Origin: Firmicutes bacterium HGW-Firmicutes-1
Lineage (GTDB): Bacteria; Bacillota; Clostridia; Lachnospirales; Vallitaleaceae
Direction of reading: 5' to 3'
NCBI GenBank assembly: GCA_002841625.1
Contig: PHAG01000008.1
Coordinates: forward strand, 186,001-250,000
DNA: 64,000 bases
Position 1 is the first letter of the stretch. Every line of letters starts with the position of its first letter. The position numbers were made by a program, and so were the translations under genes. The notes under the pieces are model-generated. The model ran no database searches. It was not told the origin of the DNA and saw nothing but the letters and a program-made list of their open reading frames with translations. This document shows positions 17,214 to 38,942 of the stretch, in pieces.

Positions 17214-17309
17214 AAACCCATCATATGCGAAATAACTCTAAAAGTTAGACACTGTAGTATACTTGTGTTTATAACCAAGGGGTGCATTTCTCATAGGATG
17301 GGTTTTTTT
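17214..17309 (+). terminator. Branched structured RNA ending in a terminator
   Basis: AAACCCATC (17214-17222) pairs with GATGGGTTT (17297-17305) followed by a T-run. The pairing continues inward (ATATGCGAAAT with ATTTCTCATAG, two mismatches), and the ~55-base interior can form two small hairpins (AACT/AGTT and ACAC/GTGT). As a terminator for uraA it is far longer than needed, so an aptamer-like or small RNA role is possible. Confidence 0.55.
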
Positions 17310-20698: not shown

Positions 20699-20732
20699 AC
20701 AGAGAAGGTTTTTTATAACCTTCCCTGTTTTT
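20699..20732 (+). terminator. Terminator after the 5'-nucleotidase gene
   Basis: ACAG-GAAGGTT pairs with AACCTTC-CTGT, followed by T5. Confidence 0.88.
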
Positions 20733-20737
20733 ACATT

Positions 20738-20904
20738 AGACAGTCGACAAAAGCATTTTTTCTTGGTAGGTGTATTCATTATTGGCAGTAAGTGTTCATT
20801 TTTCTGGCCTTACCCTTCGGCCGGTCAGGCGAAAAATGAACATTTACTGCCGTTTTTATTAAGCTGTAAGAAAAAATGCTTTTGTCTCTGTTTCGTTAAT
20901 TTAT
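20738..20904 (+). repeat. R1 palindromic repeat, copy A
   Basis: About 165 bp that recurs at 34940 and 38752. Two nested inverted repeats are visible: an outer pair (GACAAAAGCATTTTTTCT with AGAAAAAATGCTTTTGTC) and an inner 21-bp pair (20784-20804 with 20831-20851, one mismatch here) enclosing a C/G-rich loop with CCTTCGG. It lies between the nucleotidase terminator and the convergent cNMP-domain gene. It has no coding capacity and no clear target duplication here. Confidence 0.88.
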
Positions 20905-20989
20905 AATTGATTAAATTGTCGACAATTTTCTCTTTTTGATTTTATAAGTTGATATGCTTCCTATTTCAAAATACACTTTTGAAAATTGA

Positions 20990-23724: not shown

Positions 23725-23808
23725 GCATTTATAAAGCAACTTGCTACTATTCCGGATATTGTTGAAATTTTAGATGATACCGCTGAAATGAAGAGATTGG
23801 TCGTTTAA
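23725..23808 (+). pseudogene. Possible C-terminal remnant of a lost gene
   Basis: The frame reads AFIKQLATIPDIVEILDD and then TAEMKRLVV before a stop at 23806-23808; it is closed upstream by a TAG and has no start codon. The composition is protein-like, and the stretch fills an otherwise gene-free gap (23513-23816). It may be decayed coding DNA, but I cannot name a parent. Confidence 0.25.
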
Positions 23809-23816
23809 TCTTATTT

Positions 23817-23872
23817 TAACCGAATGGAAGAAGTCCCCCACTTAAAAGTGGGGGACTTCTTCCATTCGGTTA
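23817..23872 (-). terminator. 56-bp near-perfect palindrome ending ndk
   Basis: TAACCGAATGGAAGAAGTCC (continuing to 23842) pairs base for base with 23847-23872 around a four-base loop: a 26-bp perfect stem. It begins 8 bases after the ndk stop. T-runs are poor on both sides, so it may act as a stability hairpin or repeat rather than an ordinary terminator. The outer arm CATTCGGTTACGA is also found in R2. Confidence 0.65.
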
Positions 23873-23880
23873 CGAATATA

Positions 23881-24297
23881 TCAAGAGTCGAACCTAATTA
23901 AGTCCTTCCATATTTCAATTTCATTGATTGCGGCCTCAACAGATTCCGAACCATGGACAGCATTTGCTTGAACAGTTTCTCCATACATATATCTTATCGT
24001 TCCAGGTCTAGCTTTGTTTGGATTTGTTGAACCGTTAATTTCTCTAACAATGTTGACTACATCTACACCTTCTAATACCAATACAACTACTTCAGAGGAG
24101 GACATAAAATCGACCAATTCATCATAAAAATCTCTGGATTGGTGAGCTGCATAATGTTTTCCTAAAACTTCCTTTGTAGGTAAACATCTATGTGCGTGAA
24201 TAATATCTAAGCGATTATCCTCATAACATGAAATGATTTTTCCAACTAACTTTTTGATCACTGCTTCAGGCTTAATAATAACTAAGGTTCTTTGCAT
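23881..24297 (-). CDS. ndk: Nucleoside diphosphate kinase
   Basis: 138 residues with the full NDK pattern: QRTLVIIKPEAV, the NGSTNPNKARPGTIR nucleotide-binding block and the phosphorylated His in NAVHGSES. It moves phosphate between nucleoside tri- and diphosphates in the cytoplasm. The tip loop GTIRYMYGE differs from the usual GTIRGDF but keeps the fold. The gene stands alone; a 165-base leader from the promoter at 24471-24499 precedes it and contains repeat R3. Confidence 0.95.
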   Translation of the reverse strand: MQRTLVIIKPEAVIKKLVGKIISCYEDNRLDIIHAHRCLPTKEVLGKHYAAHQSRDFYDELVDFMSSSEVVVLVLEGVDVVNIVREINGSTNPNKARPGTIRYMYGETVQANAVHGSESVEAAINEIEIWKDLIRFDS

Positions 24298-34843: not shown

Positions 34844-34939
34844 GATTATGTGAAATACATAGAGGTATACGATGACCGATTGGAGTGCATTTGACTTTAA
34901 TCGGTTATTGTGCATAAACACCAGTTATAGTTGGTGAGC

Positions 34940-35103
34940 AGACTGTCGACAAAAGCATTTTTTCTGATAAGTGTATTTACTATTGGCAGTAAGTGTTCAT
35001 TTTTCTGGCCTTACCCTTCGGACGGTCTGGTGAAAAATGAACACTTACTGCCTTTCGTATTAATCTAGAAAAAATGCGTTTATCTCTGTTTCGTTAATTG
35101 ATA
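34940..35103 (+). repeat. R1 palindromic repeat, copy B
   Basis: Same 165-bp nested palindrome as at 20738, with the inner 21-bp inverted repeat fully paired. The few differences are in the loop (GGACGG for GGCCGG) and the outer arm (GCGTTTATC). It lies in a 371-base gap whose first ~95 bases (34844-34939) show nothing I can name. Confidence 0.88.
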
Positions 35104-35141
35104 ATTAAAATCAGGAAACATTATTTTTTGCAAATTAGTTA

Positions 35142-38691: not shown

Positions 38692-38732
38692 AGCATAGAA
38701 TTTATACAATCAATACTTCATATATAGAAATG

Positions 38733-38750
38733 AAGCCCTATAGGGCTTTT
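38733..38750 (+). terminator. Terminator hairpin after DUF134, left copy
   Basis: AAGCCCTATAGGGCTT is self-complementary, with TTTT after it. The identical 20 bases (38731-38750) recur at 38919-38938 on the far side of R1 copy C. Confidence 0.8.
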
Positions 38751-38751
38751 C

Positions 38752-38917
38752 AGACTGTCGACAAAAGCATTTTTTCTGATAAGTGTATTCATTATTGGCA
38801 GTAAGTGTTCATTTTTCTGGCCTTACCCTTCGGCCGGTCTAGCGAAAAATGAACACTTACTGCCTTTAGTATTAATATAGAAGAAAAAATGCTTTTATCT
38901 CTGTTTCGTTAATTTAT
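38752..38917 (+). repeat. R1 palindromic repeat, copy C, inside a duplicated terminator
   Basis: Third copy of the nested palindrome. The inner 21-bp inverted repeat is perfect. It is bounded on both sides by the same 20-base terminator sequence, the pattern expected if R1 inserted there and duplicated its target, or if a hairpin-directed copy event occurred. Confidence 0.88.
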
Positions 38918-38920
38918 GTG

Positions 38921-38942
38921 AAGCCCTATAGGGCTTTTTTTT
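38921..38942 (+). terminator. Terminator hairpin after DUF134, right copy
   Basis: AAGCCCTATAGGGCTT followed by eight T, a stronger terminator than the left copy. Bases 38943-39037 hold nothing I can name. Confidence 0.85.

Follow-up and report, generated by a model that had tools for sequence, protein, structure and literature searches.

R1, a probable MITE-like element of gene 3′ flanks that carries a hairpin also found alone

Group IIC introns insert at terminators, IS1202-type elements have target duplications of about 24–29 bp, and single-strand transposition by Y1 enzymes is not known to produce flanking duplications. The targeting of hairpins has been described for IS1272 and TnSha1, members of the IS1182 family, which according to the available excerpts of PMC4923244 target hairpins, several of them shown to be terminators, with no primary sequence preference. 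Here we describe a dispersed palindromic repeat, R1, together with its inner hairpin family, H; a search of the open-access literature found no description of either.

R1 occurs three times in the window, the 64,000-nucleotide stretch of DNA analysed here, which lies on contig C8 of the genome G000 (3.95 Mb, 33 contigs). Each of the three near-identical copies seen in the first-pass annotation was recovered, at 20738, 34940, and 38752, and each reads on the + strand. An inner 26-mer of R1 has 3 matches in the window, compared with a mean of 0.00 in 100 shuffles. Both concentric inverted repeats of the annotation are present in copy A, the inner arms at the proposed 21 bp (20784–20804 and 20831–20851) and the outer arms at about 17 bp (20746–20762 and 20870–20886) rather than 18 bp. 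The predicted fold of copy A reaches −73.1 kcal/mol (z −12.6) on the + strand and −63.5 kcal/mol (z −9.8) on the − strand. The features of the three copies and their borders are given below.

20704–20723, + strand: terminator-like hairpin with a T-run after it, immediately to the left of copy A
20738–20929, + strand: R1 copy A, whole element, with a degenerate right tip (TGTCGACAATTTT) and no significant flanking duplication
20746–20762, + strand: copy A outer stem, 5′ arm
20784–20804, + strand: copy A inner (H) stem, 5′ arm
20805–20830, + strand: copy A conserved H tip (TGGCCTTACCCTTCGGCCGGTCAGGC)
20831–20851, + strand: copy A inner (H) stem, 3′ arm, with one G-T pair
20870–20886, + strand: copy A outer stem, 3′ arm
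34939–35108, + strand: R1 copy B; right tip not found, left flank resembling the end of another repeat
34985–35052, + strand: copy B H hairpin (arms 34985–35005 and 35032–35052, tip 35006–35031)
38732–38750, + strand: 19-bp hairpin (GAAGCCCTATAGGGCTTTT), left copy flanking copy C, an exact duplicate of 38920–38938
38751–38919, + strand: R1 copy C, right tip lost
38797–38864, + strand: copy C H hairpin (arms 38797–38817 and 38844–38864, tip 38818–38843)
38920–38938, + strand: 19-bp hairpin (GAAGCCCTATAGGGCTTTT), right copy flanking copy C, followed by a T-run

A BLAST search of G000 with R1 returned at least 41 strong matches (40 of 78 candidates scored), and a pattern for the R1 core found 50 sites in this genome where the reversed-pattern control found 0. 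With the addition of L007, which carries an indel and falls outside the core-pattern set, 51 core sites were examined. Forty-seven are R1 copies, some of them truncated, and in the other four (L056, L065, L066, and the second site of L010) the core sits in unrelated stems; further partial copies are carried by six contig ends of G000. The many genomic copies predicted from the window are therefore real, and they are dispersed across G000 rather than limited to three copies or to a local duplication.

Alignment of the copies with their flanks places the ends of R1 at a left tip, CAGRYTGTCGACA, and a right tip, TGTCRACAACCTG, with terminal inverted repeats of 13 bp (CAGRYTGTCGACA). The element measures ~190 bp from tip to tip, intact copies spanning 173–192 bp and usually 184–192 bp, which is longer than the ~165 bp originally estimated. 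Exceptions are one copy of 219 bp, which holds an insert, and one of 149 bp, which has a deletion. The right tip was found, at up to three mismatches, in 28 of the 44 copies having the left tip. In two R1 copies, L062 and L067, the left half is gone as far as the H tip, a remnant of the kind that deletions in palindromes produce.

A co-directional gene lies upstream of 37 of 44 R1 copies (p = 2.6e-6, simple ORF caller) and usually stops 15–125 bp before the element. In the congeneric genome G001, the places syntenic to window copies A, B, and C all lack R1, as do those of L020 and L054. Names given to loci (htrA, valS, uracil-DNA glycosylase, histidinol-phosphatase (PHP), and ABC permease) come from reading their translations. 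The L020 place in G001 holds a single terminator whose sequence differs, and a letter-for-letter pre-insertion terminator was not seen at the G001 places compared.

Significant direct repeats flank 13 of the 28 two-ended copies, with a match of left to right flank above 95% of mismatched pairs, where 1.4 copies would be expected (binomial p = 2e-10). The null is conservative because the tandem copies in L018 have a common flank and form one false pair. The significant repeats are 15–36 bp long and end no more than 3 nt from the left tip in 11 of the 13 duplicated copies, L002 and L049 being the exceptions. In 9 of the 13, a hairpin is seen by eye inside the flanking repeat. Copy C sits between the exact 19-bp hairpin pair listed above; at L020 a 25-bp hairpin is repeated with one mismatch, and a terminator scan detects a terminator-like hairpin to the left and another to the right of the element, both pointing away from it. 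The mapping of borders and target sites proposed in the first-pass annotation has thus yielded defined tips and flanking repeats, but 15 of the 28 two-ended copies, copy A among them, have no significant duplication.

A terminator-like hairpin with a T-run was detected at the right side of R1 in 27 of 44 copies, as compared with 600 of 2000 random window pieces under the same loose detector. This enrichment is modest, since opposite-strand terminator-like hairpins occur at the right side of 20 of the 44. The copies are non-independent, with L014, L019, L058, L060, and L067 sitting inside another repeat. The latter repeat has IS-like ends (TGTCAATTATTTGTGAAAATGTCCC...) and also encloses R1 at contig ends L068–L071; identical copies of it end five G000 contigs, and we take it to be IS21-like. 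A second dispersed palindromic repeat (GCGAATGCGGAGGTTTTGTAACATTGACA type, ~53 bp each) lies at 17292, 26060, and 39057 of the window, adjoins or interrupts R1 in L003, L015, and L052, and has many matching places in G001. Also present in the window is a 50-bp inverted repeat (23794–23895) with 2 nt between arms that are 78% complementary. An Rfam scan of the window returned only a lysine riboswitch (828–1029, − strand; RF00168, 84.7 bits) and tRNA, with no R1 or H family at gathering score and no intron match, a group IIC intron derivative having been considered.

The R1 core is also found alone at the tips of other perfect stems, at four sites in G000 and two in G001. A covariance model of this hairpin, H, built from 14 hairpins, matches at least 13 of 196 genomes of the order (up to 26 candidates scored per genome), namely G000, G001, four genomes from genus g8, six from genus g3, and, in a different family, G055. 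The H tip is conserved as T-GCCTTWCC-loop-GGNCGGTCNGC (GCCTTWCC...CGGTC), and the stems span 17–38 bp. In alignment A2, 97.9% of stem cells are paired with 1 G-U in 292 cells, and both sides have changed in 13 of 21 stem pairs, which 0 of 500 shuffles reach; A2 comprises 14 sequences of our own choosing, its six R1 rows mostly picked for variable stems. Across the 47 R1 copies, there are 4 compensated pairs in the inner stem and 1 in the outer stem.

H lies 3′ of a co-directional gene at 29 of the 35 sites with a known left neighbour, and 0 of 45 H hairpins fall inside an ORF of at least 90 aa. As judged from translated flanks, H occupies like places across species (L010/L039, L056/L040, and the PHP-gene places of G013/G021), and the stems at these places differ. 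The H site L065 of G000 is missing in G001, so H too is gained or lost. The stand-alone hairpins L065 and L066, which are oriented opposite to their neighbours, have a common outer terminator-like stem (AAGATGCACTGTTATGAACTGAAGAG) and middle stems that differ. Rfam searches of 20 H, R1, and R2 loci to E 1 gave rRNA in one locus and otherwise only sub-threshold miRNA or TwoAYGGAY matches. H is an older hairpin family than R1, existing also on its own in the genus of G000 and in other genera.

A sister family, R2, has nine copies in G000 and six in G001. Its tips, TTGTCGACAAAG and CTTTGTCTCTG, are common to R1, its interior is different, and R1 and R2 frames can nest (L105, L110). R2 lies 3′ of a co-directional gene in 12 of 14 copies. 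Of 22 genomes in the family, G000 and G001 are the two that contain the right-tip pattern in exact form. Searches with tip patterns for an autonomous element, in G000 less five small contigs and in the family genomes, recovered R1, R2, and solo tips only, and ORFs near the solo tips L072, L078, and L079 include no transposase recognisable by eye. Viral contigs gave 0 matches to three tip patterns.

These searches bear on two readings in which R1 belongs to a described enzyme. The first-pass annotation had raised a REP-like element with a RAYT partner, and R1, being palindromic, intergenic, and present in many copies, has the general appearance of a REP or REPIN mobilised by such an IS200-like Y1 transposase; G000 moreover encodes one PF01797 protein of 254 aa. 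That protein, the only PF01797 member of G000, is the product of a RAYT-like gene (L208, G000:C6:161756). Another inverted repeat (GGGGACAGGCAC type, 29 nt, 93%), unrelated to R1, borders this gene on both sides, and no R1 or H tip is near it. A PF01797 match was obtained in 9 of the 13 genomes that carry H and in 10 of the 11 that lack it, so the distribution of Y1 transposases does not follow that of the repeats; G009, G012, G017, and G019 bear H with no PF01797 match. A scan of 30 Y1-transposase loci found no R1 or H tip nearby, loose single-motif matches aside, and the flanking duplications of R1 are unlike Y1 single-strand transposition. With no R1 or H tip in the 30 scanned Y1 loci beyond loose single-motif matches, and a differing repeat at L208, the RAYT link was rejected, and we regard this reading as highly improbable. 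It is also very unlikely that R1 derives as a MITE from the IS1182 family, for example from IS1272, which targets terminator hairpins. Insertion into hairpins, several of them terminators, by IS1272 and TnSha1 speaks for it, but the same excerpts of PMC4923244 describe insertions that delete part of the hairpin with no duplication. A search for PF13751 gave no match in G000 and two in G001, and the two G001 loci contain no CAGRYTGTCGACA at up to two mismatches; the IS1182 link of R1 is accordingly not supported. The partner enzyme with R1 tips envisaged at the outset was thus not found by the tip searches of G000 (less five small contigs) or through PF01797 and PF13751.

The pairing of H is best examined through its mismatches. 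Read along the upstream gene, 77 H hairpins contain 1463 pairs, comprising 1369 Watson-Crick, 62 A-C, 5 G-T, and 27 other pairs. The 77 are what remains of 96 model matches after 17 second-strand repeats, one R1 copy, and L144 (the same as L133) are set aside, and the loci behind them are the 30 best H-model matches, some of them R1 copies, plus 40 stretches of our own choosing. When mismatches are counted once per genus and position, there are 25 A-C against 5 G-T (p = 3e-4). Stems of R2, found by BLAST, have 11 A-C and 0 G-T in 14 copies, not all independent. An A-C mismatch in the sense orientation is a G-U pair on the other strand, which suggests that the strand whose folding counts may be the one antisense to the gene. 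A covariance model should favour G-U in the orientation that it models, and the search is therefore not expected to have produced the A-C bias. We tentatively propose, with somewhat less than even confidence, that selection on the antisense strand, as RNA or single-stranded DNA, maintains the pairing of H, possibly helped by template switching between the arms. Several observations stand against the antisense reading. In R1 copies alone, A-C and G-T are equal at 9 each, setting aside one outer pair that is C-A in 24 copies and T-G in 0. The fold of copy A is more stable on the + strand. At the right tip of R1, TTGACA-like letters have no convincing −10 beside them and a bottom-strand promoter was rejected. 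Finally, L065 and L066 are oriented against their neighbours.

Two further explanations of the stems were weighed against these data. If R1 and H were selected as 3′ untranslated mRNA structures of the upstream gene, acting in stability or termination, their position 3′ of co-directional genes (37/44 R1, 29/35 H, and 12/14 R2), the absence of H from ORFs, and the very stable + strand fold of copy A would be expected. We nonetheless consider this unlikely. Sense G-U pairs are scarce (5/1463 in H, 0/335 in R2) where A-C mismatches are common, no T-run follows the stem in H examples read by eye, and the same genes in G001 lack R1. The earlier suggestion of a family of structured RNAs likewise gains from compensating changes for the inner hairpin only, but meets an almost complete absence of G-U in the sense orientation. 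Alternatively, the perfect stems may be a functionless mutational product, in which template switching copies one palindrome arm onto the other. Template switching that homogenises the arms of inverted repeats is described in the available excerpts of PMC8604942 and PMC7202029, and the compensated changes at four inner pairs in recently spread R1 copies, as well as the nearly pure Watson-Crick stems, agree with it. This process predicts neither the bias of A-C over G-T nor the conservation of the tip, the location 3′ of genes, or the retention of H in like neighbourhoods of related species (L010/L039, L056/L040, and G013/G021), and we view it as possible but doubtful.

The mobility of R1 is well supported. 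Its many copies, terminal inverted repeats, flanking duplications, and fixed orientation, together with R1-free syntenic places in G001, are all directly observed and uphold the MITE reading first offered for the window copies. R1 is probably a non-autonomous MITE-like element moved in trans by a transposase with a preference for the hairpins of intrinsic terminators 3′ of genes. We infer this enzyme, the geometry of its cuts, and the direction in which events ran. Such a transposase would cut the two strands at the two feet of the target hairpin. The hairpin region would often be duplicated at insertion, with one copy left on each side of R1. Cuts at the hairpin feet would account both for the hairpin copy on each side and for the one fixed orientation of R1. 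The H hairpin carried by R1 drifts rapidly in its stem letters with Watson-Crick pairing kept, and this pairing may be maintained by antisense-strand selection, by arm copying, or by both.

A broader proposal, which is speculative and in our estimation rather unlikely, is that R1, R2, and stand-alone H together make up a class of foldback element, not described before, that occupies the 3′ flanks of genes. In such a class, the folded bottom strand, which is antisense to the adjacent gene, would be the functional or transposing form, the stem letters would be free under enforced pairing, and an enzyme acting at hairpin feet would duplicate whole terminator hairpins. Were whole-hairpin duplication true, the mobilising enzyme would recognise DNA structure and not sequence, and a terminator left on both sides would allow landing that harms the host little. 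With its conserved tip and free stem, the H family provides a clean natural set of hairpins; because the A-C versus G-T bias distinguishes the strands, this set can separate selection on RNA or single-stranded DNA folding from arm-copying mutation.

R1 has in common with bacterial MITEs that it is short, non-coding, and dispersed in many copies, and that it has inverted repeats at its ends and direct repeats beside them. It differs from bacterial MITEs generally in that its flanking repeats are long and mostly hairpin-bearing and in the separate conserved hairpin that it contains; tip searches in G000 (less five small contigs) and the family genomes found no autonomous parent. The likeness to IS1202-type elements is one of long duplications. 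R1 resembles REP and REPIN sequences as an intergenic palindrome in many copies, and differs from those with a RAYT in its different ends, its flanking duplications, and the lack of a RAYT link. No IS1182-type transposase with R1 ends was found through PF13751 in G000 and G001. The closest described targeting is nonetheless that of IS1272 and TnSha1, which enter hairpins as R1 probably does; as far as the excerpts of PMC4923244 describe, these elements delete part of the hairpin and produce no target duplication, whereas R1 would often duplicate it.
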